From NCBI RefSeq assembly GCF_003086295.3, contig NC_092053.1, positions 85,435,671 through 85,499,670 on the forward strand: DNA of 64,000 nucleotides, read 5' to 3'. The stretch is from Arachis hypogaea (Eukaryota; Streptophyta; Magnoliopsida; Fabales; Fabaceae). Every line of letters begins with the position of its first letter. Positions within the stretch are counted from its first letter, which is position 1. Positions 1-50,254 of the stretch are shown here, piece by piece. Under the pieces are notes generated by a model that saw only the letters and a program-made list of their open reading frames with translations, made no database searches and was not told the origin of the DNA. A program made the position numbers and the translations under genes.

Positions 1-26
1 CAAGAAATATTTTAAGTTTGGTGTTG
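1..26 (+). other. Polypurine-tract region of element A, before its 3' LTR
   Basis: The window opens with CAAG, then an AT stretch, then TTTAAGTTTGGTGTTG directly before an LTR start. The same string precedes the 3' LTR of D (24309-24324) and, on the other strand, of H (48007-48022). It is therefore read as the plus-strand priming region of an element whose body lies left of the window. CAAG probably is the right arm of the AGGA-loop hairpin seen at the other copies; the left arm is outside the window. Confidence 0.75.
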
Positions 27-1336: not shown

Positions 1337-2564
1337 CTTGCTCTTTCCTTTGTTAAGCTTGTTCCTGTATTACCTTTTCCATGGATCTTTTATATTCAAC
1401 AGATGAATTGTTGATGGCCTCATACATCTTGGCATATTGTTCTTGTTGTAGTTCCATCATGTGTGTTTGATATTTATTTTGCTGACACATCCATTGAACT
1501 TGAACTTCTCTTTGCTGATTCATTACCTGCCAAAGGTCCTTTTGTTGTTGAGCTTATTCCTCTTGGCTTCTTTGAATTTGTGAATATTGCCCAGAGATTC
1601 CTTCCAAAGCGGCTTGGAGTTGATTCATGTTCAAGGTACTTGTTTCTTCCATTTCTTGAGGCTCTTCCTCTTGTCTTGCTTCTTTCCTTTTCTTTTTTCT
1701 TGCTAAAGGTTGCCTCTCCAATTGGGTTGTGGTGACAAATTCCAATCTCTCCTTGGTGAGAGGCTTTCCAATAGATACCACGTCAGTTTCTTCAAATTCA
1801 TGGAGAGGTACTCTAGCTTCTTCACATAAGCACAGAATAGTACTAGGATATCCTAGCCAGCTGTCCTGTTTGACCGTCTGAGCTATGTCAATGATGTTCT
1901 TGGCTATAATTTCTCCAACATTGATCTCCCCTCCTTTCATTATGCAGTGGATCATTATTGCTCTATTCACTATCACTTCAGAATTATTCGAAGTAGAGAT
2001 TAATGATCTCCTCACTATGTCATGCCATCCTTTTGCTTGAGGTATGAGATCACCTCTTCTGAGTTTGAGTGGTTGTCCTTGTGAATTCAGTACCCAATCC
2101 GTGCCTACCTTGCACAGATCACCTAACACATCTACATATCTTGGATCATTTTCAACTCTTTCCTCATAGCTAGCTTGTTTGAACCGTTTTGGTTTGACTT
2201 TTAGCACCCTGTTGATGGCGTTTGGACTAAAGTCAACAGTCACCCCTCTTACATAACTCATGTATGGCTCTTCATCATCAAATTCTCTTATCACATTAGT
2301 GTAGAACTCATAGATGAGAAGCATGCTCACTTCTTGAGGTTGGTTACAGAGAAGCTCCCATCCCCTCTTCCTAATTATTTTTTGTATCTCAGAATATTCC
2401 TCCTTTCTTAGCTTGAAAGGTAACTCCGGGACAACATCTTTGCCTGACATCCAACTAAAGATGCACTCATTGTGTTTGGATTTGAATCTCCTTCGATCAA
2501 AGTGGCTTTGTTCTTCATTTTCGACGGGTTGCTTGTCCCTCCTAGCTCTTGATGATGAGGCCAT
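1337..2564 (-). pseudogene. ORF2 of element B (putative plant transposon protein family), broken
   Basis: The product is a 336-residue open stretch from ATG at 2562-2564 (MASSSRARRDKQPVE) to a TAA at 1554, continuing in frame as a Gln-rich coiled-coil-like tail with a further stop near 1357. An upstream in-frame ATG at 2621 would place the start inside the hairpin/polypurine module, so 2564 is preferred. The core (RGDLIPQAKGW, then SLISTSNNSEVIVNRAIMI, near 2000) aligns with the ORF2 of D, H and, more distantly, C. Plant databases label such proteins 'putative plant transposon protein' (recalled, not checked). No enzymatic motif is visible. The N-terminus is basic; the C-terminus is acidic, then Gln-rich. 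Function is unknown; in Athila elements this position holds an env-like or accessory gene. Confidence 0.7.
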
Positions 2565-2588
2565 TGAAATTGCAAGGGTCAAATCTTC

Positions 2589-2625
2589 CAACACCAAACT
2601 TAGATGAATGCTTGTCCTCAAGCAT
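2589..2625 (-). other. AGGA-loop hairpin plus polypurine-like motif upstream of ORF2 (B)
   Basis: On the - strand ATGCTTG-AGGA-CAAGCAT (2625-2608) forms a perfect 7-bp stem with a 4-nt loop. It is followed by TCATCTAAGTTTGGTGTTG. The same layout, with different stem bases, occurs at 21964-22000, 24287-24324, 28967-29004, 30414-30450, 48007-48044 and 50218-50254. It lies 25 bp upstream of the probable ORF2 start. Confidence 0.75.
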
Positions 2626-3432
2626 AAAGAAGATGTTTATGAAGGGGGTGTAGATAGATATGGTGACAAGGTAAGGAATACAAGCTTGAAAGTGATTGTG
2701 AGATGGAAGGGGGTGGTTCGGGTAGGCTAGGGGGATTAGTGCACTCTAAGTTTTGTTGAGCAAAACATAGGTTCAAAGCTAAAATCTACAAAGCAAGGAT
2801 GATTTAAAAGATGAGTGTGAATTCGGCTGAGGTAAATTGATGAAATGGGGTGATGGAGAAGGGTATATATGAGTGAGGATAAAGTGAGGTTTGATGAATA
2901 TGGTTGGAGTAGTTAAAGTGATATTTATGATGGGGGAATGGTTTTGAATGTTCGGTCAAGGCATGGGGAAAATGAAACTTCTTTGCCTAATGCATGCTAA
3001 GGTGTTTTCCTCAATGCACATAATTCAAGACTCATGTGACTTTCTTTTCCTTGTGTGTCCGTGACTTCTCTTCAAGGATTCTCCATCACTTCTTTCTTTC
3101 ACTTCCCTGCAACAAAATTCCAAAATATTGAGATTCTTGAAGTGTCTTAACATATGCCAACAAATTATGATGATATTATCATAAAAAAAACTACACTCTT
3201 TTTTTTTTATATGATTGCTTCCATATTACTAAAAGAAATAACTACACTGTTGCTCTATGGTCTAGCATTTTCGTGTATGTGTGGACACCAAACTTAGTTT
3301 GTGACTAATTGTTGTAAAAAAAACTTTTGCAATTATTTTGAGATTGGTCACACAAAACTTAGTTCTTTGCATACACTATATGCTAGTTCACTCTTTATTA
3401 TCACTAAAGCATGAAAATAAAAGATTCCTGTG
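2626..3432. other. Noncoding spacer between ORF2 and pol of B
   Basis: This AT-rich stretch has no credible reading frame. On the - strand it contains another AAGTTTGGTGT motif (3295-3285) lying in a perfect short inverted repeat, CAAACT-T-AGTTTG at 3289-3301, and a degenerate copy near 3352. Nothing else is recognised. Confidence 0.5.
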
Positions 3433-15281: not shown

Positions 15282-16980
15282 TGATGAGCGGATAATTTTT
15301 ACGCTTTTTGGCATTGTTTTTAGGATGTTTTTAGTAGAATCTAGTTACTTTTAGGGATGTTTTTATTAGTTTTTATGTTAAATTCACATTTCTAGACTTT
15401 ACTATGAGTTTGTGTGTTTTTCTATGATTTCAGGTATTTTCTGGATGAAATTGAGGGACTTGAGCAAAAATCAGATTCAGAGATTGAAGAAGGACTGTTG
15501 ATGCTGTTGGATTCTGACCTCCCTGCACTCAAAGTGGATTTTCTGGAGCTACAGAACTCAAAATGGTGCACTTCCAATTGCGTTGGAAAGTAGACATCCA
15601 GGGCTTTCCATACTTTGGCCGAGTTTAGATGACGTAAAAGGGCATTGAACGCCAGTTCTACGCTGCTGTCTGGAGTTAAACGCCAGAAACACGTCACAAG
15701 CCAGAGTTGAACGCCAGAAATACATTACAAACTGGCGTTCAACTCCAAGATTGACCTCTACACGTGTAACATTCAAGTTCAGCCCAAGCACACACCAAGT
15801 GGGCCCCGGAAGTGGATTTATGCATCAATTACTTACTTCTGTAAACCCTAATAACTAGTTTAGTATAAATAGGACTTTTTACTATTGTATTAGACATCTT
15901 TGATCAGTTTTATGCTATCTTAGACTTTCATGGGGGCTGGCCATTCAGCCATGCCTGAACCATTATCACTTATGTATTTTCATACGGTAGAGTTTCTGCA
16001 CTCCATAGATTAAGGTGTGGAGCTCTGCTGTTCCTCAAAGATTAATGCAAAGTACTACTGTTTTTCTATTCAATTCAACTTATTCCGCTTCTAAGATATT
16101 CATTCGCACTTCAACCTGAATGTGATGAACGTGACAATCATCATCATTCCCCCACGAATGCGTGCCTGACAACCATTTCTGTTCCACCTTAGATTGAATG
16201 AGTATCTCTTGGATCTCTTAATCAGAATCTTCGTGGTATAAGCTAGATTGATGGCGGCATTCATGAGAGTCCGGAAAGTCTAAACTTTGTCTGTGGTATT
16301 CCGAGTAGGACTCTGGGATTGAATGACTGTGACGAACTTCAAACTCGCGAGTGCTGGGCATAGTGACAGACGCAAAAGGAGGGTGAATCCTATTCCAGTA
16401 TGATCGAGAACCTCAGATGATTAGCCGTGCTGTGACAGAGCATTTGGACCATTTTCACAAGAGGATGGGATGCAGCCATTAACAAGGGTGATGCCTCCAG
16501 ACGATTAGCCATGCAGTGACAGCGCATCGGACCATTTTCCAGAGAGGATAAAAAGTAGCCATTGACAACGGTGATGTCCTTACATAAAGCCAGCCATAGA
16601 AAGGAGTAGGACTGATTGGATGAAGACAGCAGGAAAGCAGAAGTTTAGAGGGACGAAAGCATCTCTATACGCTTATCTGAAATTCTCACCAATGATATAC
16701 ATAAGTATTTCTATCTTTATTTTCTATTTATTTATTAGTATTTTCAAAAACTCCATAATCAATCATTATCCGCCTGACTGAGATTTACAAGATGACCATA
16801 GCTTGCTTCATACCAACAATCTCCATGGGATCGACCCTTACTCACGTAAGGTTTTATTACTTGGACGACCCAGTGCACTTGCTGGTTAGTGGTATCGAAG
16901 TTATGAATGAAAAACAATTTATTAAGACGTGCGTACAGTGTTTTTGACGCCATTGCCTGAGTTCACAATTTCGTGCACCA
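15282..16980 (+). mobile_element. 5' LTR of element D
   Basis: It starts TGATGAGCGGATAATTTTTA and ends TTTCGTGCACCA. It contains a degenerate palindrome cluster (GGCATTGAACGCCAG and relatives, 15630-15740), a TATA box at 15864, and a U5 with GATCGACCCTTACTCACG. Compared with the 3' LTR, several of its differences are TG or CA where the 3' copy has CG, as expected from decay of methylated cytosine. Confidence 0.95.
15864..15871 (+). promoter_or_regulatory. TATA box in D 5' LTR
   Basis: TATAAATA in the context AGTTTAGTATAAATAGGAC, about 580 bp into the LTR. The same box is kept in the 3' LTR at 24907-24914. Confidence 0.65.
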
Positions 16981-16986
16981 AGTTTT

Positions 16987-17003
16987 TGGCGCCGTTGCCG
17001 GGG
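16987..17003 (+). other. Primer binding site, tRNA-Asp type (D)
   Basis: TGGCGCCGTTGCCGGGG, complementary to the tRNA-Asp 3' end, 6 nt after the LTR end. Confidence 0.93.
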
Positions 17004-17004
17004 A

Positions 17005-17022
17005 TTGTTCGAGTTTGAACAA
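17005..17022 (+). other. Hairpin directly after the primer site (D)
   Basis: TTGTTC-GAGTTT-GAACAA is a perfect 6-bp stem with a 6-nt loop, 1 nt past the primer site. H carries the identical hairpin at 56828-56845. Retroviral leaders carry dimerisation and packaging hairpins at a comparable place; that role here is inference. Confidence 0.55.
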
Positions 17023-18860
17023 CTGACGGTTCATCTTGTTGCTTAGATTAGGTAATTTTCTTTTTGTTTATTTTCAAAAAATTTTCAAAAACCTTTCAAA
17101 AATTTCTCATCTGTTTTAGAAAAAAAATAAATCTTTTCAAAAATATATTTTTCTTCAGAATTTTTAAGAATGAATTCTAGAGTTTCATGAAGCATGTTGA
17201 AGCCTGGCTGGCTGTAAAGCCATGTCTAATTATTTTGGATAGGGGCTTCCAACCATCAGCATAGAGGCAAGTTAATTGGAATGTCAGCCGTGGCATGTCT
17301 GAGTTACATACTAAAGCTTGGCTGGCTATTAAGCCATGCCTAACCCTCGGATTGGAGCTTTAGACTAAGAATACAAGATTCCTGGAATTCATATTAAAAA
17401 AAAAATTTTTGAAATCCTTATTTTCTTTTTCCTATATGTTTTTTCGAAAAAAATATACAAAAATCCAAAAAAAAAATCATAAAAATCAAAAATATTTCAT
17501 GTTTCTTGTTTGAGTCTTGAGTCAAGTTGAAAGTTTGGTGTCAATTGCATATTCATCTTGCATTTTTCGAAAAATTCATGCATTCATAGTGTTCTTCATG
17601 ATCTTCAAGTTGTTCTTGGTAAGTCTTCTTGTTTGATCTTGATGTTTTCATGTTTTGTGTCTTTTCTTGTTTTTCATATGCATTCTTGCATTCATAGTGT
17701 CTATACATGAAAAATTTTTAAGTTTGGTGTCTTGCATGTTTTCTTTTCATTAAAAATTTTTCAAAAATAAGTTCTTGATGTTCATCTTGACATTCAAAGT
17801 GTTCTTGGTGTTCATCTTGACATTCATAGCATTCTTGCATGCATTCATTGTTTTGATCCAAAATTTTCATGCATTGAGTCTTTTTCATGTTTTTCCCTCT
17901 CATCATTAAAAATTCAAAAATCAAAAAAAAAATATCTTCCCCTTTTTCTATCTTAAAATTTCGAAAATTAGATTTGACTTTTTCAAAAAATTTTAAAATC
18001 AAGTTGTTTTTATGAGTCAAATCAAATTTTCAATTTAAAATCTTATCTTTTTCAAAATCTTTTTCAAAAATCATATCTTTTTCACTTTCCTTATTTATTT
18101 TCGAAAATTTTTAAAATATTTTTCAAAAATCTTTTTCTTAATTTCACATCATAATTTTCGAAAATATCATCATCAATTAATGTTTTGATTCAAAAATTTC
18201 AAGTTTGTTACTTACTTGTTAAGAAAGATTCAAACTTTAAGTTCTAGAATCATATTTTGTGATTTCTTGTGAATCAAGTCATTAATTGTGATTTAAAGAA
18301 AAATCAAATCTTTCTCAAAACTAATTTCAATCATATCTTTTCAAAAATATCTTCTTATCTTATCTTTTTCAAAATTTGATTTTAAAATATCTTTTCTAAC
18401 TTCTTATCTTCTTATCTTTTCAAAAATTGATTTTCAAAGTTTGTTTCAACTAACTAACTAACTTTTTGTTTGTTTCTTATCTTTTTCAAAACTACCTAAC
18501 TAACTCTCTCTCTCTCTCCAATTTTCGAAAATATCTTCTCTCTTTTTCAAAATTTCTTTTTAATTAACTAATTAATTTAATTGTTGATTTTAATTTTCGA
18601 AAATTACTAACCTTTTTCAAAAACTAATTTCGAAAATCACTAACTCTGTTTCAAAAATTATTTTCGAAAATCCTCTTTCTCTCTCATCTCCTTCTATTTA
18701 TTTATTCATCTACTAACACTTTATCTCACCAAAAATCTGAACCCTCTCTCTCTGAGTTCAGATTTCCTCTTCTTCTTTTCTTCTACTTACATAAGGGAAC
18801 CTCTATGCTTGGGCAAAAAGGAACTCTATTATTATTATTTTTCTGTCCCCTCTTCTTCAT
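17023..18860 (+). other. Untranslated leader of D
   Basis: A 1.8-kb AT-rich leader dominated by TTTTTCAAAAAT and TTTTCGAAAAT strings, with a short CT microsatellite near 18505-18520. Two AAGTTTGGTGTC motifs occur at 17530-17541 and 17719-17731, copies of the polypurine-like motif. A TGGCTGGCTGTAAAGCCATG string near 17202 recurs as a variant near 17320. No reading frame is credible here. Confidence 0.7.
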
Positions 18861-21128
18861 ATGAGCAGGAGCAAGGACAAGAATATTCTTGTTGAAGCAG
18901 ATCCAGAACCTGAAAAGACTCTGAAAAAGAAACTAAGAGAGGCTAAATTACAACAATCCAGCAAGCACCTTTCAGAAATTTTCGAACAGGAAGAGGAGAT
19001 GGCAGTCGAAAATAATAATAATGCAAGGAGGATGCTTGGTGACTTTACTGCACCTAATTCCAATTTACATGGAAGAAGCATCTCCATTCCTGCCATTGGA
19101 GCAAACAATTTTGAGCTGAAACCTCAATTAGTTTCTCTGATGCAGCAGAACTGCAAGTTTCATGGACTTCCATCTGAAGATCCTTTTCAGTTCTTAACTG
19201 AATTCTTGCAGATATGTGATACTGTTAAGACTAATGGAGTAGATCCTGAAGTCTACAGGCTCATGCTTTTCCCTTTTGCTGTAAGAGACAGAGCTAGAGT
19301 ATGGTTGGACTCTCAACCCAAAGATAGCCTGAACTCTTGGGATAAGCTGGTCAAGGCTTTCTTAGCCAAGTTCTTTCCTCCTCAAAAGCTGAGTAAGCTT
19401 AGAGTGGATGTTCAAACCTTCAGACAGAAAGAAGGTGAATCCCTCTATGAAGCTTGGGAGAGATACAAAGAACTGACCAAAAAGTGTCCTTCTGACATGC
19501 TTTCAGAATGGACCATCCTGGATATATTCTATGATGGTCTATCTGAATTAGCTAAAATGTCATTGGATACCTCTGCAGGTGGATCCATTCACCTAAAGAA
19601 AACGCCTGCAGAAGCTCAGGAACTCATTGACATGGTTGCTAATAACCAGTTCATGTACACTTCTGAGAGGAATCCTGTGAGTAATGGGACGCCTATGAAG
19701 AAGGGAGTTCTTGAAATTGATACTCTGAATGCCATACTGGCTCAGAATAAAATATTGACTCAGCAAGTCAATATGATTTCTTAGAGTCTGAATGGAATGC
19801 AAGCTGCATCCAACAGTACTCAAGAGGCATCTTCTGAAGAAGAAGCTTATGATCCAGAAAACCCTGCAATAGTAGAGGTGAATTACATGGGTGAACCTTA
19901 TGGAAACACCTATAAACCCTCATGGAGAAATCACCCAAATCTCTCGTGGAAGGATCAACAAAAGCCTCAACAAGGCTTTAATAATGGTGGAAGAAATATG
20001 TTTAACAATAGTAAACCTTTTCCATCATCCACTCAGCAACAGACAGAGAACTCTGAACAAAATACCTCTAATTTAGCAAACTTAGTCTCTGATCTATCTA
20101 AGGCCACTGTAAGTTTCATGAATGAAACAAGGTCCTCCATTAGAAATTTGGAGGCACAAGTGGGCCAGCTGAGTAAAAGGATCACTGAAATCCCTCCTAG
20201 TACTCTTCCAAGCAATACAGAAGAAAATCCAAAAGGAGAGTGCAAGGCCATTGACATAGTCAACACGGCCGAACCTGGAGAGGAAGGGGAGGACGTAAAT
20301 CCCAGTGAGGAAGACCTCCTGGGACGTCCAGTGATCAATAAGGAGTTTCCGTTTGAGGAACCAAAGGAATCTGAGACTAATCTAGAGACCATAGAGATTC
20401 CATTGAACCTCCTTATGCCCTTCATGAGCTCTGGCGAGTTTTCATCTTCTGAAGAGAATGAGGATGTTACTGAAGAGCAAGTTACCAAGTACCTTGGTGC
20501 AATCATGAAGTTGAATGCCAAATTATTTAGTATTAAGACTTGGGAAGATGAACCTCCCTTGTTCACCAATGAACTAAGTGATCTGGATCAACTGACATTG
20601 CCTCAGAAGAAACAGGATCCTGAAAAGTTCGTAATACCTTGTACCATAAGCAACATGATCTTTCAAAAGGCTCTGTGTGACCTTGGTTCAGGGATAAACC
20701 TCATGCCCCTTTCTGTAACAGAGAAACTGGGAATCTTTGGGGTGCAAGCTGCTAAAATCTCATTAGAGATGGCAGATAATTCAAGAAAACAGGCTTATGG
20801 ACAAGTAGAGGACGTGTTAGTAAAGGTTGAAGGCCTTTACATCCCTGCTGATTTCATAGTCCTAGGTACTGGGAAAGATGAGGATGAATCCATTATCCTT
20901 GGAAGACCCTTCCTAGCCACAGCAAGAGCTGTAATTGATGTTGACAGAGGTGAACTAGTCCTTCAATTAAACAAGGACTCCCTTGTGTTTAAAACTCAAG
21001 GTCATCCTTCTGTAAACATGGAAAAGAGGCACAGTAAGCTTCTCTCAAAACAGAGTCAACCAGAGCCCCCACAGTCAAACTCTAAGTTTGGTGTTGGGAA
21101 GTCTCAACAATGCTCTGAACATCTGTGA
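18861..21128 (+). pseudogene. gag-pro: Gag-protease polyprotein of D with one in-frame stop
   Basis: A frame of 756 codons from ATG 18861, broken only by TAG at 19782-19784. The first 307 residues hold the gag core (FELKPQLVSLMQQNC, LMLFPFAVRDRARVWL, YEAWERYKELTKKCP, SLDTSAGGSIHL). After the stop come WRNHPNLSWKDQQ, an Asn/Gln-rich stretch, a coiled-coil-like NLEAQVGQLSKRI, an acidic linker, and a retropepsin with CDLGSGINLMP (catalytic Asp) and [10 protein letters not shown]. The frame ends at 21128 with no reverse transcriptase. No CCHC knuckle is seen. The stop is probably a CAG-to-TAG change; programmed readthrough is possible but unsupported. A polypurine-like AAGTTTGGTGTTGGG overlaps the last codons (21083-21097). 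Confidence 0.85.
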
Positions 21129-21162
21129 GGCTCCATGAGAGCCCACTGTCAAGCTATTGACA

Positions 21163-21193
21163 TTAAAGAAGTGCTTGTTGGGAGGCAACCCAA
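21163..21193 (+). other. AGGCAA-loop hairpin after the coding region (D)
   Basis: AAAGAAGTGCTTG is followed by TTGGG-AGGCAA-CCCAA (21178-21193). It is homologous to the hairpins that follow pol in B, C and H, although D has no pol. This places the pol deletion between the protease and this hairpin. Confidence 0.75.
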
Positions 21194-21335
21194 TTTTTAC
21201 TTATTTAATTTTATTTTTCTTGTTCTTTCTTGTTTTATTAGGTTCATGATCATGTGGAGTCACAAAATAAATATAAAAATTGAAAATGGAATCAAAAATA
21301 GTAGAAGAAAAATCACACCCTGGAGGAAGACCTTA

Positions 21336-21582
21336 TTGGCGTTTAAACGCCAGTAAGAAGCATCTGGCTGGCGTTCAACGCCAGAACAGAGCATGGTTCT
21401 GGCGCTGAACACCCAAAATGGGCAGCATCTGGGCGTTTGAACACCAGAATTGCACCCTGGAGAAGAGCTGGCGCTGAACGCCCAGAACAAGCATAGTTCT
21501 GGCGTTCAACGCCAGAAATGGGCAACAAATGGGCGTTCAACGCCCAGAACAAGCACCAATCTGGCGCTGAACGCCCAGAGTT
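21336..21582 (+). repeat. GGCGTTNAACGCC palindrome array, about 31-bp period (D)
   Basis: Eight units of the form CTGGCGTTCAACGCCAG or close variants, starting near 21338, 21368, 21401, 21432, 21469, 21501, 21532 and 21562. Each is a near-perfect palindrome and the spacers are GC-poor. The array sits in the spacer between protease and ORF2. The same motif occurs in the D and H LTRs, in the H spacer and in the H gag-protease region. Confidence 0.9.
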
Positions 21583-21963
21583 GTGTGCAAGGGCATTTTG
21601 CATGCCTAATTTGGTGCAAGGTTGTAAATCCTTGAACACCTCAGGATCTGTGGACCCCACAGGATCCCCACCTACCTCCACTCACTTCTTCTCACCCCTC
21701 TTTCACACAATCCCATAAACACTCTTCCCCAAAACTCTTCACCAATCACCTCAATCTCTCTTCCCTATAACCACTTCACCACTCACATCCATCCACTCTT
21801 CCCCATAAACCTACCTCATAAACCCCCCTCCCCTCCCTATATAAAGCCCTCCATTCTTCCTCATTTTCACACAACACAACCCTCTCTTCTCTTCTTGGCC
21901 GAATACACCTCTCCCTCCTCTCCTCCATATTTTCTTCTTCTTCTTCATCTATTCTTTCTTCTC
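21583..21963 (+). other. C-rich spacer upstream of ORF2 (D)
   Basis: Pyrimidine-rich noncoding sequence (many CACTCTTCCCC-like strings), including TATATAAAG at 21838-21846, which could be a TATA box for a separate ORF2 transcript about 190 bp upstream of its ATG. That promoter is inference only. Confidence 0.4.
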
Positions 21964-22000
21964 TTGCTCGAGGGCAAGCAATATTCTAAGTTTGGTGTGG
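21964..22000 (+). other. AGGG-loop hairpin plus polypurine-like motif before ORF2 (D)
   Basis: TTGCTCG-AGGG-CAAGCAA (one C-A mismatch in a 7-bp stem) is followed by TATTCTAAGTTTGGTGTGG. It lies 34 bp before the ORF2 ATG, matching the arrangement in B and H. Confidence 0.7.
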
Positions 22001-22033
22001 TAAAAACATAAGCTTTTTGTTTTTCCATTACCA

Positions 22034-23179
22034 TTGATGGCACCCAAGACCGGAGAATCCTCTAGAAAAGGGAAAGGGAAGACAAAAGCTTCCACCTCTG
22101 AGTCATGGGAGATGAAAAGATTCATCTCCAAAGCTCATCAAGACCACTTCTATGATGTTGTGGTCAAGAAGAAGGTGATCCCCGAGGTCCCTTTCAAGCT
22201 CAAGAAGAATGAGTATCCGGAGATCTGACATGAAATCCAAAGAAGAGGTTGGGAAGTTCTAACAAACCCCATCCAACAAGTCGGCATCCTAATGGTTCAA
22301 GAGTTCTATGCCAATGCATGGATCACTAGGAACCATGATCAAAGTAAGAACCCAAACCCAAAGAATTATATTACAATGGTTCGGGGGAAATACTTAGATT
22401 TTAGTCCGGAAAATGTGAGGTTGGCGTTAAACTTGCCTATGATGCAAGGAGATGCACGCCCCTACACTAGAAGGGTCAACTTTAATCAAAGGTTGGACCA
22501 AGTCCTCATGGACATATGTGTGGAAGGAGCTCAATGGAAGATTGACTCCAAAGGCAAGCTGGTTCAATTAAGAAGACTGGACCTCAAGCCTGTGGCTAGA
22601 GGATGGTTGGAGTTCATCCAACGCTCCATCATCCCCACTAGCAACCGATCTGAAGTTACTGTGGATCGGGCCATCATGATTCATAGCATCATGATTGAAG
22701 AGGAAGTAGAAGTTCATGAAGTCATCTCCCTTGAATTCTACAAAATAGCCAAAAAGCCCTCTCTTGGGGCAAGGCTAGCTTTTCCTCATCTTATTTGCCA
22801 TCTATGTTACTCAGCTGGAGCTTTCATAGAAGGAGACATTCCCATTGAGGAAGAGAAGCCCATCACTAAGAAAAGGATGGAGCAAGCAAGAGAGCCCATT
22901 CATGGATCTCAAGAGACGCATGAAGCTCATGAGATCCCGGAGATGCCTCAAATGCATTTTCCTCCACAAAACTATTGGGAGCAAATCAACACCTCCCTAG
23001 AAGAATTAAGTTCCAACATGGGACAATTAAGGGTGGAACATCAAGAGCACTCCATCATCCTTCATGAAATAAGAGAAGATCAAAAAGCAATGAGGGAGGA
23101 GCAACAAAGACAAGGAAGAGACATAGAAGAGCTCAAGAACATCATTGGTTCCTCAAGAAGGAAACGCCAACATCACTAA
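22034..23179 (+). pseudogene. ORF2 of D (putative plant transposon protein family), one stop
   Basis: A 381-codon frame from MAPKTGESSRKGKGK, interrupted by TGA at 22226-22228 (probably CGA to TGA). Features in order: a basic Lys/Ser-rich N-terminus; a conserved block VIPEVPFKLKKNEYPEI; MVQEFYANAW; MVRGKYLDFSP; then the core LKPVARGWLEFIQ and PTSNRSEVTVDRAIMIHSIM near 22580-22700; and a Glu/Gln-rich coiled-coil-like C-terminus. The same order is found in B and H. No nuclease, transposase triad or membrane segment is seen, so the name given by databases to this family should not be read as activity. Function unknown. Confidence 0.75.
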
Positions 23180-24286
23180 GGTGGACTCATTCGTTGTTCT
23201 TACATTCTCTATCTTTCGTTTTCTCTATGTTAAGTGCTTATCCATGTTTGTGTCTTCATTACATGATCATTAGTATTTAGTAACTTTGTCTTAAAGTTAT
23301 GAATGTCCTATGAATCCATTACCTCTCTTAAATGAAAACTGTTTTAATTCAAAAGAACAAGAAGTACATGAGTTTTGAATTTATCCTTGAACTTAGTTTA
23401 ATTATATTGATGTGGTGACAATGCTTCTTGTTTTCTAAATGAATGCTTGAACAGTGCATATGTCTTTTGAAGTTGTTGTTTAAGAATGTTAAATATGTTG
23501 GCTCTTGAAAGAATGATGATAAGGAGACATGTTATTTGATAATCTGAAAAATCATAAAAATGATTCTTGAAGCAAGAAAAAGCAGCAAAGAACAAAGCTT
23601 GCAGAAAAAAATAGCGAAAAAATAGAAAGAAAAAAAAGAGAAAAAGCAAGCAGAAAAAGCCAAAAGCTCTTAAAACCAAGAGGCAAGAGCAAAAAGCCAA
23701 TAACCCTTAAAACCAAAAGGCAAGGGTAAATAAAAAGGATCCCAAGGCTTTGAGCATCAGTGGATAGGAGGGCCTAAAGGAATAAAATCCTGGCCTAAGC
23801 GGCTAAACCAAGTTGTCCCTAACCATGTGCTTGTGGCGTGAAGGTGTCAAGTGAAAACTTGAGACTGAGCGGTTAAAGTCAAGGTCCAAAGCAAAAGAAG
23901 AGTGTGCTTAAGAATCCTGGACACCTCTAATTGGGGACTTTAGCAAAGCTGAGTCACAATCTGAAAAGGTTCACCCAATTAAGTGTCTGTGGCATTTATG
24001 TATCCGGTGGTAATACTGGAAAACAAAGTGCTTAGGGCCACGGCCAAGACTCATAAAATAGTTGTGTTCAAGAATCATCATACTGAACTAGGAGAATCAA
24101 TAACACTATCTGAACTCTGAGTTCCTATAGATGCCAATCATTCTGAACTTCAATGGATAAAGTGAGATGCCAAAACTATTCAAGAGGCAAAAAGCTACAA
24201 GTCCCGCTCATTTAATTGGAGCTATGATTCATTGATAGTTTGAAATTTATAGTATATTCTCTTCTTTTTATCCTATTTGATTTTCG
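23180..24286 (+). other. Long conserved noncoding 3' block of D
   Basis: No reading frame is credible, yet the part from about 23440 to 24230 matches H (48830 down to about 48110 on the - strand) almost base for base, by eye around 93%. Shared strings include GAGCATCAGTGGATAGGAGG, CTTGTGGCGTGAAGGTGTCA and GGTGGTAATACTGGAAAACA. It includes an A-rich stretch (23575-23700) that carries most of the length differences. It probably holds cis-acting signals needed by both elements. Confidence 0.7.
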
Positions 24287-24324
24287 GTTGCTTGGGGACA
24301 AGCAACAATTTAAGTTTGGTGTTG
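24287..24324 (+). other. AGGA-type hairpin and polypurine tract before the D 3' LTR
   Basis: GTTGCTTG-GGGA-CAAGCAAC (perfect 8-bp stem, 24287-24306) is followed by AAT and TTTAAGTTTGGTGTTG (24309-24324), which abuts the LTR. The purine-rich run is short and broken by T, which is unusual for a plus-strand primer. Confidence 0.8.
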
Positions 24325-26023
24325 TGATGAGCGGATAATTTATACGCTTTTTGGCATTGTTTTTAGTATGTTTTTAGTAGAATCTAGTTACTTTTAGGGA
24401 TGTTTTCATTAGTTTTTATGTTAAATTCACATTTCTGGACTTTACTATGAGTTTGTGTGTTTTTCTGTGATTTCAGGTATTTTCTGGCTGAAATTGAGGG
24501 ACTTGAGCAAAAATCAGATTCAGAGATTGAAGAAGGACTGCTGATGCTGTTGGATTCTGACCTCCCTGCACTCAAAGTGGATTTTCTGGAGCCACAGAAC
24601 TCAAAATGGCGCGCTTCCAATTGCGTCGGAAAGTAGACATCCAGGGCTTTCCATACTTTGGCCGAGTTTAGATGACGTAAAAGGGCGTTGAACGCCAGTT
24701 CTACGCTGCTGTCTGGAGTTAAACGCCAGAAACACGTCACAAGCCAGAGTTGAACGCCAGAAATACGTTACAAACTGGCGTTCAACTGCAAGATTGACCT
24801 CTACACATGTAACATTCAAGCTCTGCCCAAGCACACACCAAGTGGGCCCCGGAAGTGGATTTATGCATCAATTACTTACTTTTGTAAACCCTAATAACTA
24901 GTTTAGTATAAATAGGACTTTTTACTATTGTATTAGACATCTTTGATAAGTTTTATGCTATCTTAGAATATCATGGGGGCTGGCAATTCGGCCATGCCTG
25001 AACCATTATCACTTATGTATTTTCATACGGTAGAGTTTCTGCACTCCACAGATTAAGGTGTGGAGCTCTGCTGTTCCTCAAAGATTAATGCAAAGTACTA
25101 CTATTTTTCTATTTAATTCAACTTATTCCGCTTCTAAGATATTCATTCGCACTTCAACCTGAATGTGATGAACGTGACAATCATCATCATTCCCCCACGA
25201 ATGCGTGCCTGACAACCATTTCCGTTCCACCTTAGATTGAATGAGTATCTCTTGGATCTCTTAATCAGAATCTTCGTGGTATAAGCTAGATTGATGGCGG
25301 CATTCATGAGAGTCCGGAAAGTCTAAACCTTGTCTGTGGTATTCCGAGTAGGACTCTGGGATTGAATGACTATGACGAACTTCAAACTCGCGAGTGCTGG
25401 GCGTAGTGACAGACACAAAAGGAGGGTGAATCCTATTCCAGTATGATCGAGAACCTCATATGATTAGCCGTGCTGTGACAGAGCATTTGGACCATTTTCA
25501 CAAGAGGATGGGATGCAGCCATTGACAAGGGTGATGCCTCCAGACGATTAGCCATGCAGTGACAGCGCATCGGACCATTTTCCAGAGAGGATAAAAAGTA
25601 GCCATTGACAACGGTGATGTCCTTACATAAAGCCAGCCATAGAAAGGAGTAGGACTGATTGGATGAAGACAGCAGGAAAGCAAAAGTTTAGAGGGACGAA
25701 AGCATCTCTATACGCTTATCTGAAATTCTCACCAATGATATACATAAGTATTTCTATCTTTATTTTCTATTTATTTATTAGTATTTTCGAAAACTCCATA
25801 ATCAATCATTATCCGCCTGACTGAGATTTACAAGATGACCATAGCTTGCTTCATACCAACAATCTCCGTGGGATCGACCCTTACTCACATAAGGTTTTAT
25901 TACTTGGACGACCCAGTGCACTTGCTGGTTAGTGGTATCGAAGTTGTGAATGAAAAACAATTTATTAAGACGTGCGTACAGAGTTTTTGACGCTATTGCC
26001 TGAGATCACAATTTCGTGCACCA
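24325..26023 (+). mobile_element. 3' LTR of element D
   Basis: A 1699-bp copy of the 5' LTR with the same ends and about 2.4% by-eye divergence. TATA box at 24907-24914. Palindromes near 24685-24785 are better preserved here (GGCGTTGAACGCCAG) than in the 5' LTR. It is followed directly by the duplication GTCAT. Confidence 0.95.
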
Positions 26024-26028
26024 GTCAT
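26024..26028. other. Target site duplication of D, right copy (GTCAT)
   Basis: Identical to 15277-15281; see the left copy. Confidence 0.95.
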
Positions 26029-26154
26029 CCTTCTAGCTCCAAATTCATCAAGGTCAATGGACATCGCCTGAAGCTTTATCATGGAGAAAAGATTAAGGAT
26101 CACAAAGAACTAGAGGTTTTCCTCTTGGAAGACCCACCAACAAAAGTAGAATGA
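26029..26154 (+). pseudogene. pol: C-terminal end of the C pol, resumed after D
   Basis: The frame interrupted at 15281 resumes here and runs about 42 codons to TGA at 26152-26154. It contains FIKVNGHRLKLYHGE, which aligns with [14 protein letters not shown] at the end of the B pol. This confirms that the pieces at 12363-15281 and 26029 on are one gene split by D. Confidence 0.85.
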
Positions 26155-26189
26155 GTCTGAAGAACATCCAACTTAAGGACGTAAAAGCA

Positions 26190-26215
26190 AAGTGCTAGGT
26201 GGGAGACAACCCACC
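26190..26215 (+). other. AGACAA-loop hairpin after pol (C)
   Basis: AAGTGCTA is followed by GGTGGG-AGACAA-CCCACC (26198-26215), a perfect 6-bp stem 44 bp after the pol stop. The stem differs from those in B, D and H by paired substitutions; the loop has one change, G to A. Confidence 0.75.
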
Positions 26216-26885: not shown

Positions 26886-27726
26886 ACAACTTATCCAGAA
26901 GAGCACCAAATATGTTATCTTTTCTTTCCCCCAAATCCAAATCTTTTCCTATCCCTTCTTATTTTATTTTTCTCCCTTCTTCCTTCTTTATTCTTTCTCA
27001 CTTTTTACTTTCTCCCTTCCTTATTTTTTCACATCCATTATCAAGGTTCTTTTTTTTCTTTCCTTACTTTTTACTTTTTCTTTATTATTTTTATTAATAT
27101 TTTCTTCTTCTTTTTCTTTTCACTTTCATTATCTATATTTTCTTTTTCTTTCTTTTTCTTTTCTTTTTATTCCTTTAATTGGTGTTAGAAATTTAATTGG
27201 GTAATTATTTTCTTTTACATTTTTCTTGTGAGTATATTAAGGTATTGTTTGACAACTAATATTACTTCTTAAAGGGTTGCTTGCATGTTCAGTTTAATAT
27301 TCTCAATAACATATTTACCATGCATGCTAAGTGTTTGTGAAAAAGCCCGTATGGCATCATGCATTACTTTTATGTCATTCTATTACTCTAATGCCTGTCT
27401 TTTTCACAAAACCCTTTTTATATTTTATTGATTAAATATAATTGTCAATACAAACAGGTTGTTAGTTTGAAAGAGTTGATAATCTAAGTTGGACATTTAA
27501 TGATTGATCTATGCTACTCATGCCTTTGCCAACATACCAATAAAGATCTTGCATTTAATTGTCATCACCTGCACTTGCTATATTTCCAGTGATGAACTTT
27601 TCACATGTAGTCATGACCATGTGTTAACGACATCCTTCTTTACCGTGCATTGATTATCATGCATCCTGTCCTCTTCCTTGCTCTAACCCTTGAAGTTTTA
27701 AAAATACTTACTTTTTCCCTTTTAGG
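26886..27726 (+). other. T-rich spacer upstream of the C ORF2
   Basis: A pyrimidine-dominated stretch (26930-27180 is mostly TTTCTT-like), then AT-rich sequence with no reading frame. It ends in TTTTTCCCTTTTAG directly before the G and ATG of ORF2, which looks like a plant 3' splice site. Confidence 0.5.
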
Positions 27727-28992
27727 ATGGCCACCAAGAAGGGTAAAGAGAAAGCTACTCCCAAACCACCAGCAAGGAAAGGAACAAAAATAGCACTAAT
27801 GGCAGAGCCATCTTCAACAGCGGTGAAACCCTTAACAAAACGAATCAAGAAGATCATCACGGTCGATGAAAAAGAAAAAGCTTTTCCAGCAAAGGATACT
27901 GCGCGGTTCACTAACCGCTACTGTGAGCAGATGCTCCCCATCCTGGCTGAAAGGAATTATAACAATGAGTACCTTCTTATCCTCCCGACCAACATTGCAA
28001 AATTTGTTGAGCCCCGCATTGAGCAAAGACAATGGAGATTCCTACAGAGACAGCCACGGCAGGTTAATCTATCATGGGTAGTTGAATTCTACTCTAATTT
28101 TCACATTCCAACACTGCAGTTTGTCTATGTCCGTCAGAAGCAAGTCCCCATAAATGAAGAAGCCATTCAGCGAGCTTTAAATCTCCCCCCTGCTCTAGAA
28201 GGATTGGACGCATTCCAAGAAGCCTCACTCAATCGCCAAACATACCAATTTGACTGGGATGTCGTTCTCAGAGTTATCGCACAACCTGGCAGCGTATGGA
28301 TCTACGGATACCATCAGTCCCGACCTAAGAGCATATTGGCCTCAGCACTCACCTTGGAGGCTCGAGTATGGGCACAGATCATGTCCCATTATGTCTTTCC
28401 GAGCACTCACGAGTCCTCCTTCACTGTAGACATGGCTGTTCTACTCTGGTGTATCCTTACAGACCAGCCTCTAAACATACCGAGACACATCTGAAATGCT
28501 ATGGGACACGTACAAATTGCGGGCAACTTACCTTTCCCCGCCTTGGTTTCAGATCTAGTCTCAGCAGCCGGAGTCTCCAACAGAGCTGGGGACACCAAAG
28601 CCATGATTCCACGGGATGGTCAGTACCTCCCTAACTGGAAATATATCAAACCTCCAACAGCCACTATCAACCAGAGCACAAAACCAGCGGAAGATATCAC
28701 TTCTCCTACCATATCACAAGCACCTTCAACAAATCAGCTACTCCTACAGATAATCCAAAAGTTAGACCGGCTTGAGCAGAAAGGAAAGCAAAAGGAGCGC
28801 CATAACAAGTGCCAATTTACATACCTTAAGGAGCTTATTATTGGTAACCACCCACCTAAAGAAGACCCAGATACCCCGGACTCCACTTCATTTACCAGCA
28901 CAGGGAGCCATGACGGTCCCGATGGTGGAGATGCTGCAACCAGCCCCCCTTTGTTCCTGACTGATGGCACCGAGGACGGTGCAAAGCTTTAA
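27727..28992 (+). pseudogene. ORF2 of element C, divergent member, one stop
   Basis: A frame of 421 codons from MATKKGKEKATPKPPARK, broken by TGA at 28492-28494, after which it continues in frame (NAMGHVQIAGNLPFPALVSD) to 28992. The N-terminus is strongly basic. The middle shows FVEPRIEQRQWRFLQRQ and VVEFYSNFHIP. The core VWAQIMSHYVFPSTHESSFT, then VDMAVLLWCIL, aligns with the PTSNRSEVTVDRAIMIHSIM core of D and H. The C-terminus has a coiled-coil-like QIIQKLDRLEQKGKQ followed by an acidic Ser/Asp-rich tail. No catalytic motif is seen. The last codons overlap an AGGA-loop hairpin and polypurine-like motif. Confidence 0.72.
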
Positions 28993-29004
28993 GTGTGGGG
29001 AGGT
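28967..29004 (+). other. AGGA-loop hairpin plus polypurine-like motif at the C ORF2 end
   Basis: GCACCG-AGGA-CGGTGC (28967-28982) is followed by AAAGC and TTTAAGTGTGGGGAGGT (28988-29004). The purine motif is identical to the one that precedes the C 3' LTR at 30434-30450, and the stem uses different bases. Unlike B, D and H, the internal copy sits at the end of ORF2. Confidence 0.75.
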
Positions 29005-30413
29005 CGGTCAGTACCTGACTTCCGGATGTAATTTCTCTTTCTTAACACCAATAAAATAGGATATTTATTTTATTTTTTTCTTTTGTTAGGATAGGATAGA
29101 TTGCATAGAAATAGGTAGTTGCATGCATGTTCTATTTGGTTAAAAAAAATTAATAAGTTTCTTTTTAAGACCCTATTTTTGAAAAAAAATCACTAATTTA
29201 AATCAAAATTTTTGTTTTAAAATTGTTAGAAGTTGTATTTGGAACATAGTTTAAAAAGCTAAGAACACACAACCTGTGAGATTTGAGCCTAATTACATGG
29301 TTACATTATTTAACCATAAATATTATTCTTGTGTGTTTACTTCTCTATGATTGTAATCTTTATTTTATTCCATCCTATATGTCCAATGTTTAATGTGTTA
29401 TATGCATGCATATGATTGAGGCCATTATTTTATTAACTCACTTATCCCAAATAGCCTACCCTTCCATTTACCTTTGTTAGCCACTTTGAGCCTTTTAAAT
29501 CCCATTTGTTCTATATTTTACCACATTACTAGCCTTAAGCGGAAAAATAATTAAATATCCCAATTGAATCTTTTGTTAGCTTAAGATAGAAATTGTGTGT
29601 CAATTGAGTATGGGAAGATTGTGGGAACATGGGTTAATAAGGGAATGTGGCATGATAAAATAATGGGAATTTGGGTACCTATTCATGTGAAACTAGAAAA
29701 ATTGAAAATCCATGTGCATTGATAATGTTATGTTTATTTTTATGCTAAAAAAAATCCAAAAATACTTAAGTAATTAAATAATTAAATAAGGAGACAAAAT
29801 TACCCCAATGCTAAGTTAAGTTAATGAAAAGATCAATGCATATGTGATAAAAATTAAAGGAAAAGTTGAAGCATGAGTATGTAATGCAAAAGTGAGAATT
29901 TTGGGTAGCTAGGCATGAACTTAAAGTATATAGAATGTGTATATAGGTAAGAGCTTAGGTTAATCAAAGATTCAATTTATAGCTCACTTAGCCATATATA
30001 TACCCTCACATTTACCTTGGCCCCATTAAAACCTTGAAAAGACCTCATGATGTTTGCATTGGTACATTAAATATTTGTTGATTGATTAGGTGAAGAACAA
30101 GGTTTAGAAATCATGATTAGAGAAGAGTAGAGTGATTACCCTATACACTAGAGAGACTAGAGTGTATATACACCACCAGTGAGGGTTCAATGCTTAATTC
30201 TATGTTCCCTGCTTTCATGAGCTGTCTTCTTACAAGTTTACTTGTCTTTACTGTATAGTTTGAATTAGTGGGGTTTGAGTTATTTTTGTCTTGAAGAACT
30301 TATTTATTTTAACCAAGTAGACAAAATCATATAGTTGCATTCATATACATAGGTTACATTGCATTGCATGAGTCTTACTTGTCCCTACTCATTTATTTCA
30401 TCTCCTTAAGCTA
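29005..30413 (+). other. Noncoding 3' region of element C
   Basis: A 1.4-kb AT-rich stretch between the two hairpin/polypurine copies. No credible reading frame and no similarity to the 3' block of D and H noticed. Confidence 0.5.
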
Positions 30414-30450
30414 AGCATGAGGACATGCTAATGTTTAAGTGTGGGGAGGT
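30414..30450 (+). other. AGGA-loop hairpin and polypurine tract before the C 3' LTR
   Basis: AGCATG-AGGA-CATGCT (30414-30429) then AATG and TTTAAGTGTGGGGAGGT (30434-30450), directly before the LTR start TGATAAACTACTATT. Confidence 0.8.
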
Positions 30451-36185: not shown

Positions 36186-37318
36186 TTCTACCCCTAACAG
36201 AAATTTTTGCCCTCGAAAATTCCATCCATCACTGCGAGTACGCGAGCATAGTTTGCCTTTATATCCAACGCATAAAAGTTCCAAGGTCCTTTTACTCTAC
36301 GCGCTTCCGTTGCCGCGCTCTGATTTCTCTATCTCCGAGGGTCTCGCTCATTCGTTCAACGCCAACCAACAGCCTCGTTCCTTACTTTTATCATCTCATC
36401 AACTCACACCCTATTAAATCTCAAATCATGTCATCAATAAGATTGCCATCATCGTTAATCATAGCCATCATCCTACATCACTATAATCAATCAAAGATAT
36501 TCACCACACCTTAATCATACTCCATCACTATCCTCTCTCTCTGCAAAGCCAATTCCTCTAATCACAGTTCAACTCCAAGCATAACCTCCAAACTTACTTT
36601 TTTATTCTCAAACCCTTGAAGTTCTACATGACTTGCTGTTATGAAGTCTCTGACTTGTCAATCAAGAACCCCTTTCATTTCTAGAAATCAAATGAGTTTA
36701 AAATAACAATTTAACAAAATCATGAGAATCCGCTTTCCTTTAATAATCTATAAAAGCATTCGAGACACATCTCTTTTGTTAGAGTTACTCATATCAAAAA
36801 AATCATCTTCAAAACCATAACCAACAATCTTTCAAATTCTTGGAAAAAAAATTTTCAACAATACCTCTCCAAAAATTGGAGTTCACCACCTGTCACGGGT
36901 TCCCTCAAACCAATCTCAGTACCGCATCAACATTTCAATTTAATGGTTTTCACATTCGTCTTTCAAAACTAACCATTATAAATCTCAATCTAAATCCAAG
37001 GTCACTATGACCAATCATCATAGTACTCATCTCTCAAACACGACAACTTGCACCCTCTCATCATCAAAATCCAATTATGCATCAATGATAATTTTCTCAT
37101 CCGCTTTAGAACCATCAAAGCTCGCAGCCGCAATCAATTCCAACTATTTGGGGATCATTACTTACAGTAACCCGCTTAACCCTTCTAGTATTCAAACTTA
37201 AGATATTATAGTAAACTTTTACAACTCCTATTCGTAGCTATCCTGTGTTACTGCTTTCGCAAGTTTCTGCTGCTTTATTCTGATCTCTCGCCTAGTACTA
37301 GCTCTATCACTTACTTCC
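36186..37318 (-). other. F interior, noncoding part next to the 3' LTR
   Basis: About 1.1 kb without a credible frame and without recognisable protease, RT or integrase remains. On the - strand the last bases before the LTR read TTAGGGGTAGAA, a plausible polypurine tract. Confidence 0.55.
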
Positions 37319-38928: not shown

Positions 38929-39105
38929 TCGATATCAAGTTGATCAGTCTCAATATCGAAAGTATAGTGCTTCAAAGTACCAAAGGTACACTCATGGACT
39001 TCATGCTAGATGTATCGGTTAGATACCCTAACTAGCACAGGCACAGACTCAGAGTATGCACTTAAGCATAAGCAGTTCCATCCCTCAGGCTCACGAGGAC
39101 GAACT

Positions 39106-48006: not shown

Positions 48007-48044
48007 CAACACCAAACTTAAACTGTTGCTTGTCCTCAAGCAAC
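48007..48044 (-). other. AGGA-loop hairpin and polypurine tract before the H 3' LTR
   Basis: On the - strand GTTGCTTG-AGGA-CAAGCAAC (48044-48025) then AG and TTTAAGTTTGGTGTTG (48022-48007) abut the LTR. This is the same module as D at 24287-24324. Confidence 0.8.
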
Positions 48045-49062: not shown

Positions 49063-50196
49063 TTAACAACCTTTGTTCTGGGAAATGGGTGTTCCTCTGA
49101 TCCGTGGGGTGCTTGATTCTTCAAGAGAAAACTTCTGGCGCTTTAATTCCCTTAAGTCACGCCCTTGCTCCTCTTGTTCTTTAAACATATAGGTCAGCAT
49201 TTGACTGTGTTCCTTCTGTTCTTTTATTATTTGCTCCATAGCTTCCCGTATCTTGGTGACAGACGTCTCAAGATACTCCCAGTATTTAGATTGAGGGATT
49301 TCTGGGAGAAATTCCTGTGTTTTCTTCTTGGTGGGATCCTCCTGCGCTTGTTGTTTTTCCATTGATACTTTGGTGATTGGTTTCTCAACTGAGATATACT
49401 CAGTTATTCCCATTCTTACCCCGGCGTCCTTCCAGAGTAGAGAGATCACGCTTGGATAAGCCAACCTGGCCTCTTTAGAATTTTTGTTAGCAATTTTGTA
49501 GAATTCAGCTGAGATCAGCTGATGAACTTCCACTTCCTTTCCCATCATGATGCAATGGATCATCACTGCTCTTTTAACTGTGACTTCAGAACGGTTGCTA
49601 GTAGGCAACAGAGAATGCCCAATGAAGTCCAGCCATCCTCTGGCGACTGGTTTGAGATCCTCTCTCTTGAGTTGATTTGGGACACCCTTTGTGTTGGTGG
49701 TCCACCTGGCTCCAGGGATACATATGTCCTCTAGAATCTTATCCAGGCCCTTGTCTGTTCTCATCATTCTCCTGTTGAAGGAGTCTGGATCATCTTTCAG
49801 CTGAGGTAGCTTTAAGATCTCTCTGATCTTATCAGGGATGGTATGAACAATCTTTCCTCTGACCATGGTCCGATATTCATAGAAAGAAGTTCCAGATAGT
49901 TTTTGCTTGTCAGTCTACCACATATTGGCATAGAACTCCTGGACCATATTCCTTCCCACTTTCGTTTCAGGATTAGCTAGGACTTCCCAGTTCCTGATTC
50001 AAATTTGCTCCTGGATCTCCGGATATTCATCTTCTTTCAGATCGAATCTAACTTTCGGGATCACTGATCTCAGACCCATTATTTTGTTATAATGGTCTGA
50101 ATGTTCTTTAGATAAGAACTTCCCTTGATTCCAAAGTGGTTTTGGAACGCTCTCTTTCTTGCCTCTTGGAGTGGGTTGTTTTCCTTTAGGAGCCAT
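49063..50196 (-). pseudogene. ORF2 of H (putative plant transposon protein family), two stops
   Basis: The frame starts MAPKGKQPTPRGKKESV at 50196, breaks at TGA 49999-50001 and TAG 49915-49917, and then runs open from 49914 to 49063. Blocks parallel D: VIPKVRFDLKEDEYPEI, MVQEFYANMW, YRTMVRGK, LKREDLKPVARGWLDFI, PTSNRSEVTVKRAVMIHCIM (near 49570), then a coiled-coil-like tail (EQIIKEQKEHSQMLTYMFKE). Overall identity to the D protein looks near half, with the core around PTSNRSEVTV best kept. Function unknown. Confidence 0.75.
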
Positions 50197-50217: not shown

Positions 50218-50254
50218 CACACCAAACTTAGAGGTTTGCTTGTCCTCAAGCAAA
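50218..50254 (-). other. AGGA-loop hairpin plus polypurine-like motif before ORF2 (H)
   Basis: On the - strand TTTGCTTG-AGGA-CAAGCAAA (50254-50235, perfect 8-bp stem) then CCTC and TAAGTTTGGTGTGT. It lies 21 bp before the ORF2 ATG. The stem differs from the 3' LTR copy of the same element by a G-C to T-A pair change at its base. Confidence 0.78.

Follow-up and report, generated by a model that had tools for sequence, protein, structure and literature searches.

The window analysed here is the whole stretch of 64,000 nucleotides taken from one contig of the Arachis hypogaea genome (NC_092053.1, positions 85,435,671 to 85,499,670). It contains several LTR elements, of which A, B, C, D, E and H are discussed below; B, C, D and H have features of the Athila-like elements that are abundant in plant genomes. 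Element D is 10.7 kb in length and is bounded by an LTR pair (15282-16980 and 24325-26023), with an identical 5-bp GTCAT on both of its flanks. Because of these flanks, and because a C-type copy of a second hairpin described below is found ~180 nt past D (window 26024-26215), D seems from its sequence to have been inserted into element C. Element H is located on the minus strand, with LTR matches at 47068-48007 and 57469-58408 (the 3′ edge of the LTR is approximate). The pol frames of B and H have the gypsy order of reverse transcriptase, RNase H and integrase (RVT_1 then rve); this result covers these two elements, the pol of C lying outside the window and D having no detectable reverse transcriptase. 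Using the pol proteins of B and H neither reverse transcriptase nor integrase was detected in D, where there is only a gag and protease-like region, so that D (16981-24324) looks non-autonomous yet retains both of the hairpin modules described below. The gag region of D also lies antisense to the sole Rfam match in the window, to snoR71 (19395-19502, minus strand; 46.8 bits with a cut-off of 40).

The sequence TGGCGCCGTTGCCGGGGA, which we take to match tRNA-Asp, is found at 16987, 6 nt past the 5′ LTR of D, and in B at 9274 (where the LTR edge is unmapped), with a near copy at 4638 in the C copy L193; no primer binding site of this type was found in H. The Athila primer binding site is for tRNA-Asp and is located ~5 nt after the LTR (excerpt of PMC1142308). 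An additional open reading frame (ORF2, matching Pfam PF20167) precedes the 3′ LTR, downstream of pol in B and H and of the gag-protease region in D, and is also present in C. Between families the ORF2 matches are 24-47% identical in protein sequence, and the gags of B, D and H 42-49%.

Elements B, C, D and H share a hairpin that we have named HP1, followed by a motif that is AAGTTTGGTGT in B, D and H, and AAGTGTGGGGAGGT in C. As the proteins of the families are strongly diverged, HP1 is conserved across well-separated families. The features are as follows.

1..24, plus strand: 3′ arm of HP1 and terminal motif of element A (the 5′ arm is left of the window, in L315)
1557..2636, minus strand: ORF2 of B, stop-to-stop frame (PF20167)
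2591..2601, minus strand: internal motif of B; the first ATG of the ORF2 frame is at 2564, 26 nt on
2608..2625, minus strand: internal HP1 of B, ATGCTTG-AGGA-CAAGCAT
21964..21981, plus strand: internal HP1 of D, TTGCTCG-AGGG-CAAGCAA, with one C.A mismatch
21988..21998, plus strand: internal primer-like motif AAGTTTGGTGT of D; the ORF2 start ATGGCACCC is 38 nt on
22229..23176, plus strand: ORF2 fragment of D (Pfam PF20167)
24287..24306, plus strand: terminal HP1 of D, GTTGCTTG-GGGA-CAAGCAAC, RNA fold -10.6 kcal/mol
24312..24324, plus strand: plus-strand primer region of D, AAGTTTGGTGT + TG, abutting the 3′ LTR that starts at 24325
27694..28491, plus strand: ORF2 of C, first open piece (PF20167)
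28967..28982, plus strand: internal HP1 of C, GCACCG-AGGA-CGGTGC, within the 3′ end of the ORF2 frame
28991..29004, plus strand: internal motif AAGTGTGGGGAGGT of C; the frame 28495-28989 stops at TAA 28990-28992
30414..30429, plus strand: terminal HP1 of C, AGCATG-AGGA-CATGCT
30437..30450, plus strand: terminal primer motif AAGTGTGGGGAGGT of C; the LTR start at 30451 is placed from copy L193
48009..48019, minus strand: terminal motif AAGTTTGGTGT of H, adjoining the H 3′ LTR
48025..48044, minus strand: terminal HP1 of H, GTTGCTTG-AGGA-CAAGCAAC
49066..49914, minus strand: ORF2 fragment of H (PF20167)
50219..50229, minus strand: internal motif of H; the ORF2 start ATGGCTCCT is 22 nt on
50235..50254, minus strand: internal HP1 of H, TTTGCTTG-AGGA-CAAGCAAA
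21180-21191 (plus), 26201-26212 (plus), 51081-51092 (minus) and 3436-3447 (minus): second hairpin, GGG-AGGCAA-CCC
3295 (minus), 17531 (plus), 17720 (plus), 21084 (plus), 56560 (minus), 56631 (minus) and 56700 (minus): motif copies without HP1, several of them in leaders

All seven stem-loops cited by an earlier sequence-only reading of this DNA are present where it placed them and with the arms it described. The order of the module is the same at all seven sites in the window, i.e. a pyrimidine-rich tract, the first strand of a 6-8 bp stem, the loop, the second strand, 5-8 nt and then the motif. That reading had given the gap between stem and motif as 2-8 nt, of which the upper part of the range (5-8 nt) is what the seven sites occupy. 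It had also called the AGGA loop fixed, and this sequence is found at five of the seven; the loop is GGGA at 24287 and AGGG at 21964, which makes the word fixed a mild overstatement. A steadier measure is the distance from the loop-closing C to AAGT, which is 12 nt at six of the window sites and 13 nt at 28991. Elements D, H and C have both internal and terminal copies of HP1, and B has an internal copy, no terminal B copy being found in the window. An eighth HP1, with one stem mismatch, belongs to element A at the left edge and was read beyond the window (L315). HP1 has no match in Rfam at the gathering threshold. In element E (36181-36270; CCHC gag at 37834-38934, minus strand) AGGGGTAGAA is located before an LTR-like repeat, and no HP1 module is present in the 90 bases read there.

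The second hairpin (with AGACAA in place of AGGCAA in C) is found in all four families and precedes the internal HP1, being located ~50 nt past the pol frame in B and past the gag-protease frame in D. Its outer pairs vary but match (TT/AA, GGT/ACC, CT/AG and CAT/ATG), and the genome contains 41,441 matches to the pattern GCTTNNNGGGAGGCAACCC(N5)W versus 0 to its reverse.

The pairing of the HP1 stem was analysed using every instance of GGAC 10-14 nt before AAGTN(T/G)GG, with no requirement for a 5′ arm, taken from the window and from loci of its own genome. This gave 118 distinct instances with 55 distinct arm pairs. Many of the loci had previously been found by patterns fixing the loop and motif and not the arms; one search fixed one 3′ arm, and two loci came from a search that fixed both arms. 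Over stem positions 2-7 of the 55 arm pairs 287 of 330 cells are paired. Shuffling the 3′ arms 5000 times pairs 158.4 cells on average and never more than 198, although this does not remove shared descent among the copies. When all instances are counted at positions 3-7, pairing is seen in 550 of 590 cells in register, versus 140-225 when the arms are slid by 1 or 2. These counts are made on single copies from one genome, with kinship handled only by collapsing identical arms and by the slid controls, and they retain the failing rows (the chance matches L278, L285, L286 and L287, together with decayed copies). There are at least two types of Watson–Crick pair at each of six consecutive stem positions, and at least three at positions 2, 3 and 6. 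The cores observed include TGCTTG/CAAGCA, TGCTCG/CGAGCA, AGCATG/CATGCT, GCACCG/CGGTGC, GCATCG/CGATGC and GCACGG/CCGTGC. Between the internal sites of D type and H type a T-A pair is exchanged for C-G in both arms (L218 and L200), and elsewhere in the genome the D-type internal HP1 is perfectly paired as TTTGCTCG/CGAGCAAA (e.g. L218). Within one genome, and by comparison with both shuffled and slid controls, the earlier suggestion of a selected structure is thus upheld by the varied pair types at six positions.

Two other origins of such complementarity need to be considered. Reverse transcription is prone to quasi-palindrome template switching, and correction by this route could render the arms complementary in place of functional selection. 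The existence of several distinct perfect stems would be accommodated by such a process, but neither the conservation of the loop nor its steady spacing from motif and LTR would follow from it, and we regard it as improbable. Alternatively the palindrome might act as DNA, either as a site for a host or element protein, or as a cruciform in integration or recombination. HP1 is about equally stable on either strand, as such a role would allow, and for the same reason the folding does not demonstrate the RNA form. Selection for protein binding should, however, preserve the sequence and not the pairing; the loop and the orientation do not vary with respect to the motif, and the internal copy is far from the ends of the LTR; a role at the DNA level is therefore quite improbable.

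The abundance of the module was counted in the 2.56-Gb genome from which the window derives, with reversed patterns as controls; the totals may be lower bounds. GAGGAC-N(6-22)-AAGTTTGG is found 42,656 times versus 313 for the reversed pattern, and GAGGAC-N(6-22)-AAGTGTGG 45,473 times versus 217. The signal of hairpin plus motif exceeds chance, being >100 times the reversed-pattern controls. A GCTTG/CAAGC stem with any 4-nt loop and AAGTTTGG within 3-12 nt occurs 63,356 times, and a GCATG/CATGC stem with any 4-nt loop and then AAGTGTGG 24,004 times, each with 0 in the control. Neither pattern specifies the loop, and among the first 100 matches listed of each, judged by eye, it is AGGA or GGGA in 99 of the former and AGGA in 94 of the latter. 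The gap following GAGGAC is similarly confined; judged by eye on the first 100 listed for each pattern, with 6-22 nt allowed, 97 with AAGTTTGG and 99 with AAGTGTGG have it at 11-13 nt. The core GCTTGRGGACAAGC occurs 64,511 times and is seldom found without the motif, since only 3 of its first 100 occurrences are missing, by eye, from the motif-linked set of 63,356. Viral contigs were tried as a source of relatives and rejected. Over at least 120 plus four stretches of these contigs the stems are of 1-3 bp at 119 of 123 scored places, short enough to be chance matches, with one of 7, one of 5 and two of 4 bp at the others.

The position of HP1 is closely coupled to that of the plus-strand primer, as the sequence-only reading had proposed, with a steady distance both to the motif and to the start of the LTR. 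In all 45 distinct terminal copies the loop-closing C precedes the start of the LTR by 24-26 nt, where 23-28 nt was allowed. Measured from the Watson–Crick base of the stem the distance is 17-19 nt in 35 of the 45, and 20-23 nt in the other 10. The LTR start is measured for D and for L193, a C copy whose motif directly adjoins the LTR, and is elsewhere taken from the matching position. For non-terminal copies the distance from the stem base to the equivalent boundary is 18-19 nt in 22 of the 27 with AAGTTTGG; among the other 28 it is 19-22 nt in 26, and at least 20 nt in 25. The 18 nt on the 5′ side of the stem are 76% pyrimidine against a background of 50% (100 instances with a stem of at least 5). 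Directly before the LTR 11 of 13 nucleotides are purine in L193. In D the motif is in the right place and has 7 purines in 13 bases, and the earlier label of polypurine is a poor fit to the D- and H-type motif.

While the hairpin is seldom without the motif, the motif is often without the hairpin. The claim that every main motif has an attached hairpin was overstated, as 7 of the 15 exact copies in the window lack HP1, the remainder comprising seven with the hairpin inside the window and the edge copy of element A. The bare 11-mer AAGTTTGGTGT occurs 364,973 times in the genome versus 5,139 for the control. An unselected sample was provided by the first 100 copies of AAGTTTGGTGT listed on contig C1, of which 32 are of hairpin type and 68 are not; 29 of the 100 pass a strict hairpin test. 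All 18 sample copies followed by TGTGATG (the LTR-start type) have the hairpin, 16 with a four-base and two with a six-base loop. Seven of the nine followed by GGTAA (the ORF2 side of D type) pass the strict test and two are decayed. Six of the remaining 73 pass, one by chance in A/T-rich sequence. Five sites were classed by eye from the downstream sequence, L197 and L245 as terminal and L200, L249 and L262 as ORF2-side. The leaders of D and H also contain AAGTTTGGTGT, and in D-type copies it recurs every 33 bp ahead of the post-gag hairpin.

At 34 of the 68 sampled sites without HP1 the motif itself forms a palindrome with its 5′ flank (e.g. CAAACTCTAAGTTTG); the 34 come from roughly five contexts and so are not independent cases. 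Such palindromes occur in 3% of shuffles (maximum 10%), and at 3 of the 32 HP1 sites. In internal C copies (window 28991-29015) a downstream GACTTCC or GATCTCC is able to base-pair with GGAGGTC, the 3′ half of the motif, so that by its sequence part of the internal C primer could be hidden. Another potential hairpin (HP2; GATGC-GTGA-GCATC and variants, in L201, L252 and L311) lies just past the motif at the LTR start. This is not claimed as a structure because its fold z-scores are not significant (mean z -0.41 over 35 representatives of 100 instances, p<0.05 in 2 of 35).

A regular internal second copy, which the sequence-only reading had anticipated, accompanies most of the terminal copies surveyed, so that the refuting outcome named in that reading, internal copies missing from most elements, is not what is seen. 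Over C1 12.59-15.60 Mb, with sites listed by eye, each terminal copy was scored for an exact internal copy lying 0.5-4 kb upstream of it on the same strand. One is present for 35 of the 55, and in 34 cases the distance is 1.2-2.3 kb; the controls give one downstream on the same strand and none on the opposite strand. As exact matching was used, the count is a lower bound. The excluded rows are two chance matches (C1:12655573 and 13624940) and two real sites (13816739, internal, and 14991542, terminal with no listed partner), and adding the two real sites gives 35 of 56. As expected of a central polypurine tract (PPT), the same tract is present at both positions, AAGTTTGGTGT in D and H, and AAGTGTGGGGAGGT in C.

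Between the end of the internal module and the ATG of ORF2 there are 22-38 nt in B (26 nt), D (38 nt) and H (22 nt), and HP1 is preceded by its pyrimidine tract. These are the arrangements that would be sought in a signal for ORF2 expression, whether by re-initiation, internal entry or splicing. In C, however, the internal module is located at the far end of ORF2. The stop of the L195 frame coincides with the beginning of the 5′ arm, and that of the window frame falls in the TAA of the motif. Amongst 13 internal-type C loci, ORF2-like sequence is present upstream in four. Another four (L193 included) share the L193 arrangement over most of 1,360 bases, in which ORF2 is cut to its first codons and the hairpins are still paired (with one G.T wobble, in L047); the remaining five have only partial matches to this arrangement. 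Given this position in C, the survival of the module where ORF2 has been lost, and its presence also before the 3′ LTR, a general role in ORF2 expression, as the earlier reading had offered, is unlikely, and we consider that expression of ORF2 has very little prospect of being what HP1 is for. No pol is detectable in L193. Both L193 and D keep both modules with no detectable reverse transcriptase of their own, which is as expected if HP1 acts in cis.

The simplest reading of the coupling between HP1 and the plus-strand start site is a role in reverse transcription. From the sequence comparisons we consider it about evenly balanced whether HP1, the short A/T-rich spacer and AAGTKTGG constitute one cis-acting plus-strand priming module of Athila-like Ty3/gypsy elements. 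In such a module HP1 would fold in the genomic RNA and stall minus-strand synthesis as soon as the reverse transcriptase had finished copying the primer region. The RNase H site would then be located ~17-19 nt behind the stall, at the primer/U3 boundary, and a cut at that point would generate the exact 3′ end from which plus-strand DNA is primed. The internal module may provide a second plus-strand start in the manner of a central PPT. The pause is suggested by the 17-19 nt between stem base and U3 in most terminal copies, which resembles the 17-18 nt behind the growing end at which the polymerase-linked RNase H of HIV-1 cuts; in the excerpted account such cuts probably require a pause of the type that hairpins and other structures bring about (PMC3627382).

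Several observations count against the pause. The distance anchored on the loop is tighter than that anchored on the stem, which fits a loop-binding protein as well as it fits a pause, and the non-terminal C-type copies are 1-3 nt further out. The ruler of 17-18 nt is known to us only for HIV-1, the excerpts giving none for the Ty3 or Athila enzymes. The reverse transcriptase of Ty3 has a different dimer architecture, and selection of the Ty3 primer and cut site is reproduced on preformed RNA/DNA hybrids (both in the excerpt of PMC5371799). The 68 of 100 sampled motif copies that have no HP1 weigh against the module as a whole. A stronger form of the proposal is that the primer is selected by structure and not by a polypurine tract, with HP1 parking the reverse transcriptase and RNase H cutting the LTR boundary. 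This we put forward tentatively, as a rather unlikely reading. If it were true, priming set by structure would have allowed the purine content of the D- and H-type primers to fall to 7 in 13, and the other sampled motif copies, about half of which are buried in the motif's own palindrome, would be rival primers.

The main rival to the priming module is a loop-binding Gag or reverse transcriptase, in which HP1 would be a docking site for packaging, dimerisation or assembly, with a G-rich 4-base loop on a 6-9 bp stem repeated for avidity. HP1 presumably resembles the packaging hairpins of retroviruses, and docking would make sense of the loop being conserved (99 of 100 AGGA or GGGA, and 94 of 100 AGGA, in the first 100 listed by eye of each type), of loop-anchored spacing being the tightest measure, and of AGG appearing also in the loop of the second conserved hairpin upstream of the internal module. 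It leaves unexplained the rarity of the core without the motif and the spacing to the LTR. A zinc-knuckle Gag was rejected as the ligand, as a pattern search of the B, D and H gags, which may be degenerate, found no CCHC knuckle; another element of the window does carry the knuckle. On balance we think docking unlikely, though it is the best of the alternatives to priming. How reverse transcriptase picks one exact end for the plus-strand primer is still not fully explained, and a covarying hairpin with ruler-like spacing in tens of thousands of genomic copies makes the priming model directly testable. The HP1 module is also a sequence signature by which 3′ LTR edges and internal primer sites may be located.

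In the literature searched, which was mostly outside subscription papers, we found no description of HP1. No HP1-like hairpin is described in the excerpts of PMC11963269, PMC2829016 and PMC1142308, and among the papers listed for the letters of the motif all look unrelated by title.

The module can be compared with several known systems. In having a second, internal plus-strand primer tract it is like the central PPT of retroviruses and Ty1, beside which we know of no adjacent hairpin. Ty3 itself has no known central PPT (excerpt of PMC5371799). There is also a likeness to Athila4 and Calypso, env-like Ty3/gypsy elements of the same lineage with one extra primer-like PPT between pol and the 3′ LTR (Wright and Voytas 2002, as cited in the excerpt of PMC2829016); that account does not mention a hairpin, whereas HP1 is present here. 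The Sireviruses, in the same excerpt, have repeated PPT copies and a structure proposed to aid formation of the plus-strand primer, but these are Ty1/copia elements and the structure is an inverted repeat whose arms straddle the PPT, the left one preceding it and the right one lying within the LTR. In contrast both arms of HP1 end before the motif with none inside the 3′ LTR, and the pol of B and H has the gypsy order and not that of Ty1/copia. The upstream PPTs of Sireviruses are without the inverted repeat (PMC2829016, excerpt), whereas here the internal copy has its hairpin too. Lastly, in the pause-linked (3′-DNA-directed) RNase H cleavage of HIV-1 a hairpin in the template stalls the enzyme and cuts are made 17-18 nt behind, as proposed for HP1, but in the excerpt of PMC3627382 this serves general degradation of the RNA, whereas HP1 would be a dedicated signal defining the primer.
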